A stretch of 64,000 nt of DNA from Pyxidicoccus sp. MSG2. Its GTDB lineage: Bacteria > Myxococcota > Myxococcia > Myxococcales > Myxococcaceae. A program made the position numbers and the translations under genes. The stretch spans positions 5,022,001 through 5,086,000 of the forward strand of contig NZ_JAPNKC010000001.1 in NCBI RefSeq assembly GCF_026626705.1, in the 5' to 3' direction. Position 1 is the first letter of the stretch. Each line of letters starts with the position of its first letter. Shown one piece after another: positions 3 through 7,583 of the stretch. A model generated the notes under the pieces. The model did no database searches, was not told where the DNA came from, and worked only from the letters and a program-made list of their open reading frames with translations.

Positions 3-1796
3 TCTCCGCTGGAGTGGCTGCGCTCCACGGTGGCGGCCCACCTGCGGTGGCTGGTGCTGGCGTGGGTGGCGGGCGTGGGGCTGTGCTCGGGGCGGATGAC
101 GGCCGAGTGGGTGAAGCTGCGCCGGCTCGCGGCCCGGGCCCGGCCCGCCCCCGTCGAGTGGCAGGAGCGGCTGGACGCGCTGGCGGCGCGGCTGGGTCTG
201 GGACGCGCGGTGCGGCTGCTCCAGTCGGCGTCGGTGGACGTGCCGGCGGCGGTGGGCTGGCTGTCCCCGGTGGTGCTGCTGCCGGTGTCCGCGCTGTCCG
301 GGCTGTCCACGCGCCAGCTGGAGATGGTGCTCGCGCACGAGCTGGCCCACATCCGTCGCCATGACTTCGCCGTGAATCTGGCGCAGGTGCTGGTGGAGAC
401 GCTCCTCTTCTACCACCCGGCCGTGCGCTGGGTGTCCCACGTCATCCGCGTGGAGCGTGAGCACTGCTGTGACGACGTCGCCGTGGGCGCCAGCGGTGGT
501 GCCCTCTCCTACGCCCGCGCACTGACGGCGCTGGAGGAGCTGCGCGTGCTGCCCACGGTGCAGGGCCCGGCGATGTCCGCACTGGGTGGCTCGCTGCCGG
601 AGCGCGTGCGCCGGCTCGTCACCACGCCCGCCGCGCGGTGCTCCTCGAAGTGGGTGGCCGGAGCGTCGGTGCTCACCCTGGCCAGCAGCCTCGCGGTGGC
701 CGCGCCGCTGACGTCGCTGGTGCTGGGACGCGCGGAGACGGAGCCGTCCTCCGAGACGATGTCCGCGGGCTCGCTCACGCAGGACCGCGAGGCTTCACGG
801 GGTGAGCCGCGCTCGGGGGTGACTGCCGCCCCGAGCGGTAGCGTCCGGGGGCTCCCCGCCGCTCCGCCCGCGCCCCCTGCTCCTCCCCAGGCCGTCCCCG
901 CCGCCCCGCCCGCGCCTCCCGCCGCCGGGGTCGCCTCCTCGGCGGTGAAGAATGCCCTCATCGCCCCGGTGGTCATCGCGCCGGTGCCGGGCGCCGTGGC
1001 CGCGGCGCCTGCTCCGGCGCCCGCCCCGAAGCCGAACCCGCGTGACTCCGACGACGACGATGGCGACGCGGACGAGCGCACGCAGGTGGGCGTGGGGCAG
1101 CCGCTCTCCGTGGACCAGCTGGTCGCGCTGAAGGTCGCGGGCGTCACGCCGGCCCGCGTGCAGGAGCTGGTGGCCATGGGCTACACGCCCACGGTGGCCA
1201 ATCTCGTCTCCATGGGCCACGCGGGCGTCACCCCCGAGTACGCGAAGGACATGAGCGCCCGCTTCGGCCGCAAGCTGGACGCGGATGACCTGGTGCAGAT
1301 GAAGCACCTGGGCGTCACCCCGGCGTACATCGAGGCGCTCAAGGCCGCGGGCTTCACCACCAACGACCCGGACGACCTGGTGCAGGCGCGTGCGGTGGGC
1401 GTCGACGAGGCCTACGTCCGCGAGCTGAAGAACGCCGGCTACACGGGCATGTCGCTGGAGGACATCTCCGAGCTGCGCGCGGTGGGCGTGGACGCCGGCT
1501 ACATCCAGGCCCTGGGCCAGCGCGGCCTGTCGAAGCTGGCCGCGGATGACCTGCAGCAACTGCGCGCCGTGGGCGTCACGCCCGAGTGGCTGGACCGCAT
1601 GCGCGAGGCCGGCGTGCAGACGAAGGACGCGGAGGAGCTGACGGAGCTGCGCGCCCTCGGCGTGGACCCGGCCTTCCTCCGTGAGCTGAGCGACGCCGGC
1701 CTGAAGGACCTCTCCGTCGACGAGCTGGTCCGCCTGCGCTCCGGCGGCGTGGACGCCGACTTCATCCGGAAGATGCGCGACTCGCGGCAGAAGTAG
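3..1796 (+). CDS. BlaR1-like M56 metallopeptidase with C-terminal 29-residue repeats (5' truncated)
   Basis: The frame is open to the window edge, so the true start lies upstream; the first internal GTG is at 30. The zinc site HELAHIRRHD lies about 103 residues after that GTG and is followed by EREHCCDDVAV, which supplies the third ligand of M56 peptidases. A hydrophobic segment follows at about residues 208-232. Next come an Ala/Pro-rich linker, an acidic run (DSDDDDGDADE) and about seven repeats of the form LxxLRxxGVxxxYIxxLxxAGY. In BlaR1/MecR1 the peptidase domain is cytoplasmic and the C-terminal domain is an outside sensor that triggers repressor cleavage. By analogy the repeats would be the extracytoplasmic sensor; that is inference. 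A BlaI/MecI-type repressor gene would be expected just upstream of the window. Confidence 0.88.
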   Translation, partial: SPLEWLRSTVAAHLRWLVLAWVAGVGLCSGRMTAEWVKLRRLAARARPAPVEWQERLDALAARLGLGRAVRLLQSASVDVPAAVGWLSPVVLLPVSALSGLSTRQLEMVLAHELAHIRRHDFAVNLAQVLVETLLFYHPAVRWVSHVIRVEREHCCDDVAVGASGGALSYARALTALEELRVLPTVQGPAMSALGGSLPERVRRLVTTPAARCSSKWVAGASVLTLASSLAVAAPLTSLVLGRAETEPSSETMSAGSLTQDREASRGEPRSGVTAAPSGSVRGLPAAPPAPPAPPQAVPAAPPAPPAAGVASSAVKNALIAPVVIAPVPGAVAAAPAPAPAPKPNPRDSDDDDGDADERTQVGVGQPLSVDQLVALKVAGVTPARVQELVAMGYTPTVANLVSMGHAGVTPEYAKDMSARFGRKLDADDLVQMKHLGVTPAYIEALKAAGFTTNDPDDLVQARAVGVDEAYVRELKNAGYTGMSLEDISELRAVGVDAGYIQALGQRGLSKLAADDLQQLRAVGVTPEWLDRMREAGVQTKDAEELTELRALGVDPAFLRELSDAGLKDLSVDELVRLRSGGVDADFIRKMRDSRQK

Positions 1797-1907
1797 GCCC
1801 GCGCGCCGTCCAGCAGTCCCCACCGTTCTCTCAATCTCCCCCACCCTCACGGCCGCGTCCCACCGGATGCGCGCCGCACGGGTGGGGTCTGTCCGAAGGA
1901 GCCCATC

Positions 1908-2978
1908 ATGCGTCGCCTGTCGTCCCTTCCCCTCGTGGCCGTGCTGCTCGCGGCCTTCTCCGCCACCGCGGCGCCCGAGCTGCGCGGCACCTGGACCGCC
2001 CAGCCCCGGAGCAACCGCGACGGCAAGGAGCTGCAGCTCCAGCTCCACCGCCAGGACGAGCACGGCCAGATGGGCTTCAGCGAGCCCCTGTCCGCCTTCC
2101 AGGGCCTGTCCACCAACGACGGCCCGGTGTCCTTCACGATGCCGCGCGAGGCCGGCACCTTCAGCTTCGAGGGCCAGTTCAAGGGCGGCGAGGGCGCGGG
2201 CCACTACCGCTTCGCTCCGAGCGACACCTACGCGAAGGCCATGGCCGGGCTGGGCTACCCGAAGCTGTCGCCGGAGGACCACTTCAAGCTCGCCGCCACG
2301 GACGTCACCACCACCCGCATCAAGGACCTGGCGGCCATTGGCTACAAGAACCTGTCGATGGACGAGCTGATGCAGGTGGGCATCTTCGACGTCACGCCCG
2401 CCTATGTGAGTGAGCTGGCGAAGGCCGGCTACCCGGGGCTGACGATGGAGCAGCTCGTGGCGGGCCGCATCCACGGTGTCGACGCGGCGCGGGTGCAGGG
2501 ACTGGCCTCGGCCGGCTTCACGAAGCTGGACTGGGACGACCTGCTGGCCATGTCCATCCACGGCGTCACGCCCGAGTTCATCAAGGAAGTGCGCGCCCTG
2601 GGCTTCAAGGACCTGGACGGCGACGAGATTGTCGCCTTCCGCATCCACGGCGTCACTCCGGCCTTCGTGAAGGAGATGCGCGACGCGGGCTTCAAGGACG
2701 TGGACGCCGACGGCTTCACCGCCTTCCGCATCCACGGCGTCACGCCCGCCTTCGTGAAGGAGATGCGCGAGCTGGGCTTCCCCAACATCACCGACGAGGA
2801 GCTCGTCGCCTTCCGCATCCACGGCGTCACCCCGGACTTCGTGAAGCGGATGCGCGCGGCGGGCTACACCCGCATCACCCCGGACGAGCTGGTGTCGCTG
2901 CGCATCCACGGCGTCGATGAGAACTTCATGCGCGCCATGTCGGGCACCGGGGACGGCGGGGCGGCGAAGAAGAAGTAG
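1908..2978 (+). CDS. Secreted protein with tandem 29-residue GVTP repeats
   Basis: This 356-aa protein starts at an ATG preceded by GAAGGAGCCCATC. It has a clear signal peptide ending near ATAA (about residue 22) and no lipobox. Residues about 23-105 form a beta-rich domain starting LRGTW. The rest is about eight 29-residue repeats with consensus GVTPxFVKEMRxAGFxxxxxDExxAFRIH. The same repeat, at the same period, forms the C-terminal part of the M56 peptidase gene 111 bp upstream, so the two probably work together, perhaps by repeat-to-repeat contact or as sensor and ligand. Several repeats are nearly identical at DNA level over the RIHGVTP codons (about 2640, 2727, 2814), which suggests recent duplication. 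Specific function unknown. Confidence 0.85.
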   Translation: MRRLSSLPLVAVLLAAFSATAAPELRGTWTAQPRSNRDGKELQLQLHRQDEHGQMGFSEPLSAFQGLSTNDGPVSFTMPREAGTFSFEGQFKGGEGAGHYRFAPSDTYAKAMAGLGYPKLSPEDHFKLAATDVTTTRIKDLAAIGYKNLSMDELMQVGIFDVTPAYVSELAKAGYPGLTMEQLVAGRIHGVDAARVQGLASAGFTKLDWDDLLAMSIHGVTPEFIKEVRALGFKDLDGDEIVAFRIHGVTPAFVKEMRDAGFKDVDADGFTAFRIHGVTPAFVKEMRELGFPNITDEELVAFRIHGVTPDFVKRMRAAGYTRITPDELVSLRIHGVDENFMRAMSGTGDGGAAKKK

Positions 2979-4285: not shown

Positions 4286-6076
4286 TCACTCCAGCGACGG
4301 CGCGGTGTCCCCGGGGATGAGGACGCCGCGCGCGAGCGACACGGGCAGGCCGAGCCGCAGGAAGCGGTCGTGGAAGTCCTTCAGCACGAAGGGCTGCCCT
4401 TGCGCCTCCAGGTGGCGGCGGTAGTCCTCACGCAGCTTGAGTATCTGCATGCGTCCGACGGCGTAATAGAGGTACGTCGGGTTGGACGTGCCGCGCTCCA
4501 CCTCGCGCAGCGCGGGGAAGGGCTCGAAGTACGCAATCTCCGCGTAGCGCTTCGCCACGGCCTCCAGCGGCTCGCCGTAGACGTGGAGCGCCAGGGCCGC
4601 GTACCAGCGGGCGTGGCGCTGGAGCGCGCGGCGCAGCTGCCCCAGGCGGATGCGCGGGTCTCCGTCACCCAGGCCCTCGTCCACCATCATCTGCTCGGTG
4701 TAGTGGGCCCAACCCTCGACGACGGACGTGGGGGAGAAGACCTTGCGCACGTCGGTGGGAATCTTCGACTCGTAGAGCAGCTGCACGAAGTGGCCGGGGA
4801 TGGCCTCGTGCACGGAGATGCCGAGCAGGCCCGCGCGGTTGAAGTACGTCAGGTGCTGCGCCCGCTGCTCCGGCGTCCAGCCCGACTCCGCGGGGGTGAT
4901 GTTGTAGAAGGCCTCGGTGGCCTTCGTCTCGAAGGGGCCCGGCGTGTCCATGGACGCGAAGCCCAGCCGTGCGTACGGCGGCGTCTCGCGCACGGTGGGG
5001 AGCCGGTCGGACGGCAGCGTGAGGATGTTCCGCTCGCGCACGAAGCGCTGCAGCTCCACGAGCTGCGCGCGGGCGGTGGGGATGAGCTGGTCGGCGGTGG
5101 GGTGGTCCTTCACCAGCTCGGCCATCACCTGCTCGGGCGTCTTCTTCGGGTCCACCTTCGCGGCCTCGCGGGCGACCCAGGCCTTGTACTCGCGGATGGA
5201 GCGCTCGTTGATGTCGCGGAGCTGGTCCGCGCTCAGCGTCACGTGCTCCTCCAGCGCGAGCTTCTTCTCGAAGCGCTCGCGGCCCAGGCGGAAGTCGCCG
5301 TCCGCGCGGGGCAGCACCTCCTGCTCCAGCCAGGTGGCGAAGGACTCCAGGTGTTGCGCGGCCTCCTCGCGGGCGGCGGTGAAGGCCTCGCGCTCGGAGG
5401 CGTCCACCCGGGCGAAGCCCTGGGCCTCCATCGCCCGGGGCAGGTCCCCGCGCAGGTAGGACGCGATGCCCCGGGCATCGCGGTGGGAGAGCCGGGCCCA
5501 CAGCTTCGGCACGCCACGGAGGTTGGCCTTCGCCGCACCGAGCACGGCGGGGATGTGCGCCATGCGCGAGCGCAGGGAGTGCATCCGCTCGGCGACGGGG
5601 GCGAACTCGCGGGAGGAGAGGTTGGACAGGCTGCTGGCGATGAGGCCCACGTAGAAGCCGGGGTTGTTCTCCCAGGGACGCTGCTCCTCCAGTTCCGCGA
5701 GGTCCGCGCGGATGGCGTACTCCAGCACGCGCACGTCGACGGCGGAGTCTCCGGCGAGGGCGGCGCGGTCCAATGCGTCCAGTCGCGTGAGCCAGTCCTG
5801 GAGGGCCTTCGACTTGCGTGCCAGCGCGGCGGCGGAGACGTCCGGGAGGCGGGCGTCGTGCTGGTGGAAGCCGAGCGACGTGGCGCGCGTGGGGTTCGCC
5901 TCGAGGTACCAGTCGAGGTACTCGCGGGCGAGGCGGGTGTACGCGGCCTCGGCCGCGGACGAGGAAGCGGTGGACATGGCGGAGGTCTCCGGCACGGTTC
6001 GCGAGCGTGGGGCGCAGGCGGACACACAGGCCAGCAGGACGAGGGCGGAGCGCAAGAGCATGGGGGCTCGAAGCAT
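4286..6076 (-). CDS. DUF885 family lipoprotein, putative metallopeptidase
   Basis: This 596-aa protein has a lipoprotein signal ([15 protein letters not shown], lipobox VSAC at about 18-21). Full-length DUF885 architecture follows: a helical N-terminal part, [11 protein letters not shown] at about 422-432 with an HExxxGH zinc-binding motif, and [10 protein letters not shown] at about 453-462 with the third, glutamate ligand. DUF885 proteins have a thermolysin/carboxypeptidase-like helical fold and are assumed to be peptidases. The lipobox places this one on the periplasmic face of a membrane. An internal ATG at 6061 also gives a usable signal peptide. Substrate unknown. The gene stands alone, with a methyltransferase gene 54 bp upstream on the same strand. 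Confidence 0.87.
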
Positions 6077-6130: not shown

Positions 6131-7126
6131 TCAGAGGGAGTGGGCGTCTCGTGCCGCCGGAGTGGCGCACAGCACGGCGACGAGCGTCTCCTCACCCACG
6201 TCGAGGCCCACGTACCCCGGGTAGCGGCGCGGTTGCATCTGCGGGTGCGTGCCCAGGTCCAGGGTGGAGGGGACGTCGTCGCGCGAGAAGCCCGCGCGGG
6301 CGAGCCTGCGCCACCAGCCGCGCACGTGCTCGAACCGCTTCGAGCGGGAGTCGTCGGAGTCGTCGATGACGGCCTCGAGCTCGCGCACGAGGAAGCGCCG
6401 GATGGCGTCCCGGTCCTCCTGGGGGAGCGAGAGGCGGTCCATCAGCTGGAACGTGAGGCCGAAGTAGCGCCAGCCCTGACGGAAGCGCAGCTCCGGGTCC
6501 GAGGTGGAGACGTCCAGGCTGGGCTCGGTGAGCACGAGGGCCTTGGGCTCCAGCATGCGCAGCCGGCGCAGCACGCCGTCCCGGGCCTCCTCGCCGGCCG
6601 CCTTCCCGCGGACATGGTGCAGCGCGAAGGCCGAGTGCACGAGCAGCGTCCCGGGCATCGCCGCCACGAGGGGCCAGAAGGACGGGTCCAGCTCCTCCAC
6701 GAGCGAGTGGAAGGCCATGACGTGGACGTCGAGTCCGTAGGCCTGCGCGGCCTCGAGGAGGTTGTGCCTGGCGGTGCGGAGACTGACGGCATCGGGCTCG
6801 ACGGCGATGATGGTGAGGTGGCGGGGACGGTCCGCGCGAGCACCGAGTCGCCGCAGCAGGTCCACGCCCTGGCGTCCGGTGCCGGGGCCGATGTCGAGGA
6901 GCACGGCCTCGTCGAGGCCGGCGAGGTGGTGACACAGCCACTCATTGGCGATGTGTCCCGCCATGGCCACGGTGGGCAGCGCTTCCGAGACACGCTCCGC
7001 CAGCGCCTGACGCGAGCGCGTCTCTCCATGCCCCGCGAGCCCCGAGAGGAAGGACGTGAGACGTTGAAGGTTCTGGCTCAAGACGACGGTCCCCCCGTGG
7101 CTCATCCGAGAATACGAAGACTGACG
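6131..7126 (-). CDS. Bacterial GRAS-family SAM-dependent methyltransferase-like protein
   Basis: This protein is about 331 aa. Motif I LLDIGPGTGRQG (about 77-88) and the acidic end of strand 2 (IIAVEPD) mark a Rossmann methyltransferase. The rest follows the plant GRAS layout closely: hydrophobic LVHSAFALHHV, RDGVLRRLRMLEPKALVLTEP, SDPELRFRQGWRYFGLTFQLMDRLSLPQEDRDAIRRF (equivalent to the GRAS PFYRE region, read here in parts), HVRGWWRRLARAGF and a C-terminal YPGYVGLDVG. Bacterial GRAS proteins are known and are thought to methylate small molecules; plant ones lost the activity. The glycine-rich loop suggests SAM binding is kept. Start: ATG 7126 has AGGA just ahead; ATG 7105 and ATG 7189 are alternatives, the last overlapping the divergent gene. 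Confidence 0.75.
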   Translation of the reverse strand, partial: RQSSYSRMSHGGTVVLSQNLQRLTSFLSGLAGHGETRSRQALAERVSEALPTVAMAGHIANEWLCHHLAGLDEAVLLDIGPGTGRQGVDLLRRLGARADRPRHLTIIAVEPDAVSLRTARHNLLEAAQAYGLDVHVMAFHSLVEELDPSFWPLVAAMPGTLLVHSAFALHHVRGKAAGEEARDGVLRRLRMLEPKALVLTEPSLDVSTSDPELRFRQGWRYFGLTFQLMDRLSLPQEDRDAIRRFLVRELEAVIDDSDDSRSKRFEHVRGWWRRLARAGFSRDDVPSTLDLGTHPQMQPRRYPGYVGLDVGEETLVAVLCATPAARDAHSL

Positions 7127-7187
7127 CATTTCCTGGCTGACCGGGTACTGTGCCCCTGGAAAAACCGAGACGAGACAGGATGTGGCC

Positions 7188-7583
7188 ATGAAGGGGATGA
7201 CCTGTTGGGGTATCTCCGCCGGCCTGCTGCTGGCATGTGCCTCCGCGCCGTCGCAACGAGCAGGCGTCCTTCGGGATGGCTATCCACGCGAGCCGGGAAG
7301 CTTCTGCGCGCTGAACCCTGAAGGGTGCCCTCCAGCAGCCGCCTCTCCCTGGCGCGAGTCCGAAAAGGATTCCGAATCTCCAGCGAACAAGCAGACCTGC
7401 CTGGCTGCCTGTGATGCTGAAGGAGAAGTGCTCGCGGCATTTTGCCGACGGCTCCGGAATCCCAGAAGGCAGGCCCTGTGCTGGGGAGCAGCAGAGGGCT
7501 CCAAGCGCGCATGCCATGGCATGTGTTACGCCATCTACGAATGCGGTGACTCTGACGATTGCCCTGCGGAGGATGAACCATGA
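7188..7583 (+). CDS. Cysteine-rich small lipoprotein
   Basis: This protein is about 131 aa. The start ATG has AGGA 7 nt upstream; an in-frame GTG at 7182 is an alternative. The signal peptide ends in LLLACAS, a good lipobox. The mature region is rich in cysteines (SFCALNPEGC, QTCLAACDAEG, FCRRL, LCWGAAEG, ACHGMCYAIYECG, DDC), consistent with a disulfide-stabilised periplasmic or surface fold. Its stop overlaps the next start (ATGA at 7580-7583), so the two proteins are translationally coupled. It is divergent from the GRAS methyltransferase, with about 60 bp shared between them. Not assigned to a family. Confidence 0.75.
   Translation: MKGMTCWGISAGLLLACASAPSQRAGVLRDGYPREPGSFCALNPEGCPPAAASPWRESEKDSESPANKQTCLAACDAEGEVLAAFCRRLRNPRRQALCWGAAEGSKRACHGMCYAIYECGDSDDCPAEDEP

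Follow-up and report, generated by a model that had tools for sequence, protein, structure and literature searches.

A BlaR1-like M56 peptidase and a secreted protein built from the same repeat: a probable cell-envelope sensing unit in Pyxidicoccus and other bacteria

An M56 peptidase and a secreted protein with a common repeat

In a 64,000-nucleotide stretch of the Pyxidicoccus sp. MSG2 genome (contig NZ_JAPNKC010000001.1, positions 5,022,001 to 5,086,000; hereafter, the window), a gene for a BlaR1-like membrane peptidase of family M56 is followed by a gene for a secreted protein, here called SEC, and both products carry tandem arrays of the same repeat. M56 and SEC probably form one hitherto undescribed cell-envelope sensing unit, since the same switch controls both genes and the same repeat builds both proteins. 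The arrangement is found in soil bacteria from several phyla. We favour, with some reserve, the reading that the locus is a self-regulating envelope circuit of the BlaR1/BlaI type, with a solenoid where BlaR1 has its penicillin-binding sensor, and that SEC serves at once as regulated output and as functional partner. What can be read from the DNA is the gene order, the architecture, the fusions and an exact operator that the genes have in common in cis and in trans. In the literature listings searched, judged from titles and abstract openings, no description of a repeat-bearing M56/SEC system was found.

To our knowledge, BlaR1-type proteases are known almost only as β-lactam sensors, and the signals of many environmental relatives are largely unknown. 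The locus offers a conserved version of BlaR1 whose candidate operator is conserved too and whose secreted partner is defined; in nature the partner is also found fused to the protease, or unlinked but under the same operator. The system makes it directly testable in laboratory strains of Myxococcus what non-antibiotic BlaR1 relatives sense and whether an induced exported protein feeds back on its sensor.

The gene order is FA_hydroxylase gene, blaI, M56, SEC. The M56 gene starts 406 bases upstream of the window, and upstream coordinates are given in the surrounding stretch of the same genome, L004, whose base 6002 is window base 1. The features are as follows:

L004:5186-5599, blaI, with a Penicillinase_R domain (E 1.1e-25, 90.6 bits against 22.6 needed)
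L004:5596-7797, plus strand, whole M56 (BlaR1-like) peptidase gene (PF05569), 733 aa; its 3' part is window 3..1796
Window 336..350, plus strand, HELAH zinc-binding motif of the M56 protease, at residue 248 of the full protein
Window 654..728, plus strand, presumed last transmembrane segment of M56 (hydropathy peak, residues 354-378)
Window 1140..1793, plus strand, M56 repeat array: 7 units of 28-29 residues, then an incomplete one at the C-terminus (period analysis)
Window 1908..2978, plus strand, SEC gene, 356 aa, with signal peptide, β-domain and repeat solenoid
Window 1908..1973, plus strand, SEC signal peptide with an AxA-type end (sequence)
Window 1980..2219, plus strand, SEC β-domain of six strands, residues 25-104 (structure model)
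Window 2223..2942, plus strand, SEC α-solenoid of about 8 two-helix units of 29 residues (period analysis and model)

The 3' end of blaI overlaps the start of M56 by 4 bases, and in the 111-base gap between M56 and SEC a promoter- or terminator-like site was looked for and none was found. The three genes are apparently one operon, whose promoter is overlaid by a pair of palindromic operators.

The two repeat arrays

The best period was 29 in both arrays; at this lag, identities make up 67 of 207 positions for M56 and 100 of 223 for SEC. The period scores (0.32 for M56 and 0.45 for SEC) were reached in none of 2,000 shuffles each, the shuffle maxima being 0.18 and 0.15, which ruled out a chance origin of the repeat. 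An earlier note on this DNA, made from the sequence alone, had described tandem repeats of exactly 29 residues in both genes; the repeats were borne out, and the strict length very nearly so, as one M56 unit has 28 residues.

In both arrays the unit consists of two short helices, and the arrays agree in period and frame but differ in consensus. With SEC as the query against its own genome at E≤10, three matches were obtained, all within the M56 and SEC genes. At the unit junctions, the window SEC has mostly the triplet RIH, and the window M56 has RAV, RAL, KHL, GHA or RSG. Across 64 pairs, [RK][IV]H was found at 70% of 365 SEC junctions versus 4% of 387 junctions in the partner M56 arrays, which have mostly KVQ, KIQ, RVQ and RAV. 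In fused chains the signature makes up 33% of 89 junctions; the corresponding figures are 10% of 39 for M56 arrays that are not in these pairs and 55% of 195 for SEC proteins without M56. The arrays have a common framework on which each has become specialised. Both arrays are acidic, with average net charges per 100 residues of -2.9 and -2.3. Known repeat or helix-hairpin families were rejected for the arrays as below their Pfam cut-offs (Decapeptide, 23.4 against 45 bits; HHH_5, at most 20.5 against 27; UBA, 14.9 against 22.4), and the repeat parts had no Pfam or NCBIfam match above cut-off.

Pairing and fusion of M56 and SEC

The pairing of the two genes was followed in two sets of loci. Set 1 consisted of 79 loci from a typed-consensus scan of named genome contigs plus the window locus (80 in all); two profile alignments, A2 and A3, proved too diverse to serve as its query. 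Set 2, fetched to lessen the scan bias, comprised 60 places from the genome surveys described below: 30 from Acidobacteriota (all, in 28 non-centre genomes), 7 from Gemmatimonadota (all non-centre) and 23 from Bacteroidota. The latter represent 22 of the 42 genomes other than G195 and G208, together with a second place of G208; these 22 were chosen, not drawn, for the best scores or longest frames and, in 11 cases, for frames of about 230-270 residues.

In set 1, blaI, a repeat-bearing M56 gene and SEC occurred together in 53 of the 80 loci, and M56 and SEC were present in 5 more in which BlaI was not found in the locus. In another 5 loci, from Aquimarina (L098), Parafilimonas (L105), Bacteroidetes (L107), Neolewinella (L110) and Zixibacteria (L051), the M56 protease continues in one chain into the SEC β-domain and a repeat array, and a separate SEC gene was not seen. 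A repeat-bearing M56 gene was found in 21 of the 60 places of set 2, namely in 12 of 30 in Acidobacteriota, none of 7 in Gemmatimonadota and 9 of 23 in Bacteroidota, the last rate being too high because the 20 genomes left out were mostly of the short-frame kind.

Taken together, the two sets held 86 open reading frames (ORFs) for a repeat-bearing M56, of which 66 have a neighbouring SEC gene on the same strand, 13 have the β-domain and repeats fused C-terminally and 7 have neither. In 63 of the 66 cases the distance from M56 to the start of SEC is -4 to 209 bases; in the other 3, ORFs called from the first start codon overlap further. One fused case (L181) has SEC genes as well; in the other 12 of 13 no separate SEC gene was seen in the stretch read, and therefore the SEC part there probably serves as sensor. 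In the model of the fused L051 protein (mean predicted local distance difference test score, pLDDT, 79, lower in the β-domain), the β-domain and solenoid lie directly behind the last membrane helix, and its best PDB folds are S. aureus BlaR1 structures (8exq, E 2.9e-06). Distances also covary among the partners at 57 loci (M56 with the SEC β-domain, r 0.84; M56 with BlaI, r 0.94; BlaI with the SEC β-domain, r 0.74), as expected for genes that are inherited together.

The pairing bears on the possibility that the repeat is simply a general exported protein-interaction solenoid, which reached both genes by duplication inside the operon without any functional link. The repeat does also occur in ECF-sigma (extracytoplasmic function), SHOCT-like and response-regulator settings. 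However, adjacency or fusion in 79 of the 86 ORFs, across several phyla, is hard to explain without selection for joint action, as is the operator that unlinked SEC genes have of their own (see below), and we regard this explanation as improbable. That the peptidase and the secreted protein belong together, as the earlier note's interpretation implied, is supported by adjacency, fusion and a common operator in trans.

SEC sometimes also occurs with another, putative type of transducer. An ECF sigma factor, a HEAT protein, a DUF4097 protein and SEC follow in that order in an apparent operon (L165:3356-6925); L104 has the order ECF sigma, HEAT protein, SEC, L161 has DUF4097 followed by SEC, and L178 has an ECF sigma factor, two small genes and SEC. 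At L191:1448-4972, M56, DUF4097, HEAT and repeat units are joined in one chain of 1,174 residues. This chain and the ECF-sigma loci therefore indicate that the same parts occur with two kinds of transducer.

Sensor region and topology of the M56 protein

The M56 protein matched PF05569 both in its window part (E 6.6e-26) and as the full gene (E 5.7e-26). HELAH is followed by REHCCDD at residue 288, and the H, E, H, E and D residues of these motifs were invariant in all 23 aligned sequences. The HExxH protease domain and the adjacent repressor gene of BlaR1/MecR1, as well as the Penicillinase_R domain of the BlaI/MecI family, are all present at the locus; the C-terminal penicillin-binding sensor domain of BlaR1/MecR1 was not found. 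The listed Pfam matches, at E≤10 with the window part and at E≤0.001 with the full gene, included no penicillin-binding or β-lactamase family, and NCBIfam blaR1_generic reached 72.3 bits against a cut-off of 400, with the protease part alone matched. The expectation of a mode other than β-lactam sensing, voiced in the earlier note, agrees with this architecture. By sequence, no solved structure was related to the M56 fragment at E≤0.01.

Hydropathy peaks of the full protein begin at residues 11-21, 44, 216, 354-360 and 453-455. The one at residue 354 marks the last membrane segment, which is conserved; the repeat array starts at residue 516. The peak at 453-455 belongs to a proline-rich hydrophobic stretch (residues 453-473; L004:6952-7014; window 951-1013) between the last transmembrane segment and the array. 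Hydrophobic segments from after the protease motif to the array were counted in the 83 of 86 ORFs that were testable: 77 have exactly one, 3 have none and 2 have two (the window M56 and L064), while three were counted in a single ORF that was called too long. Because 77 of 83 have just one such segment, the window array was placed outside the cytoplasm, and the repeat region of M56 is presumed to follow the last membrane segment on that side.

The SEC protein

The SEC model (mean pLDDT 93, from 38 sequences) has a six-stranded β-domain at residues 25-104 and then a regular α-solenoid to residue 345. A hydrophobic segment precedes the β-domain in 93 of 100 SEC proteins, and a lipobox-like motif was found in 2 of 100. 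The β-domain had no Pfam match, and a sequence search of solved structures gave no relative of SEC (best E 0.96). In a fold search with the model, a designed nanocage came first (E 6.1e-04), followed at 0.024 by the second match. Comparison with TALE or MTERF superhelices yielded Z values of 6.1 to 7.8 and root-mean-square deviations of 5 to 12 Å, which is within the tool's stated background for helical repeats; as this second comparison gave only middling Z values, no known fold is claimed or excluded for SEC.

Tandem operators and the genes behind them

The operon promoter of the window genome reads TTGACA-16-TAATAT. One candidate operator, TACGAACGGGTTCGTA, lies within the promoter spacer and extends two bases into the second hexamer; the other, TACGAAGACCTTCGTT, extends two bases into the first hexamer, at a distance of 22 bases. 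As conserved palindromes at the promoter, both are candidate BlaI operators. They were the sole sites with 0-1 mismatches among the matches listed for their own genome (13.3 Mb), where up to 2 mismatches gave 70 forward-pattern matches versus 38 with the reversed pattern. In this genome the restriction of the operator to a single operon at ≤1 mismatch would speak against control of a β-lactamase or a resistant penicillin-binding protein, but two relatives have a PF00144 hydrolase gene behind the exact tandem operator (see below).

TACGAA-N4-TTCGTA (≤1 mismatch) was present within 150 bases before or 40 after the BlaI start in 45 of 77 M56 loci, which are related and not independent, and in none of 20 rounds of shuffled controls. 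Of these 45 loci, 44 have a second copy (≤2 mismatches) at a distance of 20-22 bases, and in 8 of the 77 loci, all from Bacteroidota, TACTAAT-N2-ATTAGTA (≤1 mismatch) takes the place of the motif. In Bacteroidota few sites were found outside the operon and the reversed-pattern control was higher in 3 of 6 genomes, for which reasons no regulon is claimed there.

The exact tandem operator occurred 69 times in 61 of 96 family genomes, versus none for the reversed-pattern control. It was assigned to blaI-M56 operons in 59 cases, to unlinked SEC genes in 5, to DUF5916 genes in 3 and to PF00144 hydrolase genes in 2. Among the 59, 33 were read directly (L004, L221, L224, L233, L235, L275, L276, L277 and 25 of the 30 loci L238-L267) and the other 26 were assigned by position relative to SEC or repeat matches; in G001 and G015 the operator sits on another contig than SEC, presumably by a split. 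The unlinked SEC genes (G133, G134, G135, G137 and G139) start 34-46 bases downstream of the operator. A repeat-bearing M56 gene was found elsewhere in four of these genomes, the G139 copy being without the exact tandem pattern; the G137 copy was not located. The more distant G076 has a second SEC gene with an operator pair of its own. SEC thus sits behind the same kind of putative switch also in genomes where it is unlinked.

The PF00144 genes (serine hydrolases of the β-lactamase family) are in G033 and G108, and the DUF5916 genes, with a marginal CBM9 match, are 141 bases from the operator in G115 and G116 and 306 bases in G005. One of the 59 blaI-M56 pairs with the exact tandem operator, that of G110 (L272:2938-5323), encodes an M56 protein that has SLT and M23 peptidoglycan-hydrolase domains and no repeats. 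The other genes behind the operator would suggest a connection with the cell wall and the outer envelope. One perfect but single site, located within a kinase ORF of G033, was left out of the targets. Separately, in G135 a PF00144 β-lactamase-family gene with no operator in front (L220:1770-3026) precedes the unlinked SEC gene by about 1.8 kb, and DUF5916 or CBM9 proteins occur near repeat loci in other phyla (L109:4714-6966, L051:5717-6907).

The placement of SEC behind a BlaI-type operator in cis and in trans, and its presence alone in other lineages, would also suit an arrangement in which SEC and M56 never touch: both would carry the solenoid because they bind the same envelope molecule, which SEC would remove or shield, thereby ending the signal. 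In classical BlaR1 systems, the sensor domain resembles a β-lactamase, and sensor and induced enzyme likewise bind a common ligand. However, the junction signature, a candidate binding surface, differs between SEC and M56, and a separate SEC gene was unseen in nearly all fused cases. We take this arrangement to be a serious contender, albeit a less probable one than a functional partnership of SEC with the sensor.

Proposed circuit and comparison with known systems

In the circuit that we favour, BlaI would at rest, judging from the DNA, occupy the two operators, which cover the promoter. An envelope signal would act on the M56 solenoid, alone or with SEC bound, and activate the protease; following the BlaR1 paradigm, BlaI would then be cut, the operon expressed and SEC made. 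SEC might subsequently join the sensor at a common target or act upon the sensor, either as a co-receptor or by capturing or neutralising the signal, so that the switch is reset. Protease action on BlaI would follow by analogy, and we infer direct contact between SEC and M56. The ligand would most likely be a feature of the cell wall or outer membrane. In a more specific form, which we put forward only tentatively, the M56 and SEC solenoids would assemble end to end or side by side into a two-part periplasmic sensor, used in several phyla, that reads an envelope feature such as wall state or spacing through the SEC β-domain and reports it by BlaI proteolysis; SEC would be exchanged between M56-BlaI and ECF-sigma transducers, and the parts fused in Bacteroidota, Zixibacteria and some Acidobacteriota.

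The earlier note had gone further in proposing a homotypic receptor-ligand contact, with SEC docking on M56 array to array and thereby switching the protease. The common framework and period of the arrays, the fusion of β-domain and array to M56 and a correlation of partner unit numbers (rho 0.55, 64 pairs) are in its favour, but both arrays are acidic, their junction signatures differ and SEC occurs in many places without a repeat-bearing M56. Such a contact is a possibility, not a result, and as the switch itself it appears rather unlikely; a role of SEC as ligand is one option, and those of regulated output, co-receptor or negative regulator fit equally well.

Several observations weigh against the circuit as proposed. 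The unit-number correlation is confounded by descent, and charge complementarity between the M56 and SEC arrays was looked for and not seen. Five uncut repeat-bearing M56 genes have neither SEC nor the β-domain (the remaining 2 of the 7, L111 and L155, are truncated where a contig or locus ends). Conversely, at 36 places the stretch read contained SEC but no repeat-bearing M56 gene, and therefore the function of SEC does not require M56; 5 of these places are at contig edges (L049, L072, L087, L103 and L171), and in L049, L072 and L103 a truncated upstream repeat ORF is probably an M56 tail. Some repeat-positive genomes, G127 and G150 among them, are without the exact operator pattern. For the cleavage and binding of BlaI the circuit relies on the example of S. 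aureus BlaR1, and the M56 stretch at residues 453-473, if membrane-crossing, would put the repeat array inside. Besides the 36 SEC places, 14 of the 23 fetched Bacteroidota places have a repeat protein without the β-domain and no M56 beside it. A repeat widespread and unpaired with M56 genes in unrelated secreted proteins, which the earlier note had set against its own proposal, was thus found in part, but the 36 places hold the same SEC family, not unrelated proteins.

The window locus resembles the BlaR1/MecR1-BlaI/MecI systems of S. aureus and B. licheniformis in its M56 membrane zinc protease with an extracytoplasmic C-terminal sensor, in the adjoining BlaI/MecI-type repressor gene and in the palindromic operators over the promoter. 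In S. aureus, BlaR1 cuts BlaI directly and the extracellular sensor controls the cytoplasmic protease (PMC9834060). The window M56 differs in carrying a repeat solenoid, with no penicillin-binding sensor domain found, and the co-controlled gene encodes a secreted solenoid protein instead of a β-lactamase or PBP2a.

CpxP and RseB are secreted regulators that bind their own membrane sensor. Like theirs, the proposed circuit would respond to envelope stress and have among its products an exported protein that may bind the sensor; in contrast to CpxP and RseB, whose folds are unrelated, sensor and exported protein here have a common repeat, and fusions exist. The ECF-sigma/HEAT/DUF4097 groups (L165, L104) contain a SEC protein like the window locus, but their transducer would be a sigma factor instead of M56-BlaI.

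Distribution and neighbouring genes

The repeat was found in 28 of 61 genomes (the window genome and 60 relatives), in 64 of 195 of a phylum sample, and in 44 of 296 Bacteroidota, 29 of 199 Acidobacteriota, 8 of 121 Gemmatimonadota and 1 of 240 genomes in the class of an alphaproteobacterium; some of the genomes behind the last four counts had already been recognised as positive (G195 and G208, G198, G203 and G200, respectively), and the rates are not strictly comparable, as queries differed and cut-offs were 0.001, 0.001, 1e-06 and then 1e-08 three times. In 16 chosen positive genomes, matches were at one place each, except for one genome with two. The 79 scan loci were mostly from Acidobacteria and Myxococcota, the remainder being from Bacteroidota, Rhodothermia, Alphaproteobacteria, Chloroflexi, Gemmatimonadota, Zixibacteria, Eisenbacteria, Calditrichaeota and Krumholzibacteriota.

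In Chloroflexi, proteins with a SHOCT-like N-terminus and the repeat were observed, in which the β-domain was not found (L077:3806-4567, L068:3803-4432). Bacteroidota proteins of about 230 residues, with a hydrophobic segment near the N-terminus and a few divergent units, lie beside response-regulator genes (L192:4775-5458, L201:4868-5569). In the window, a DUF885 gene on the minus strand at 4286-6076 lies outside the system, and a bacterial GRAS-domain protein, of a family best known from plants, is encoded at 6131-7189 (PF03514, E 7.1e-25).

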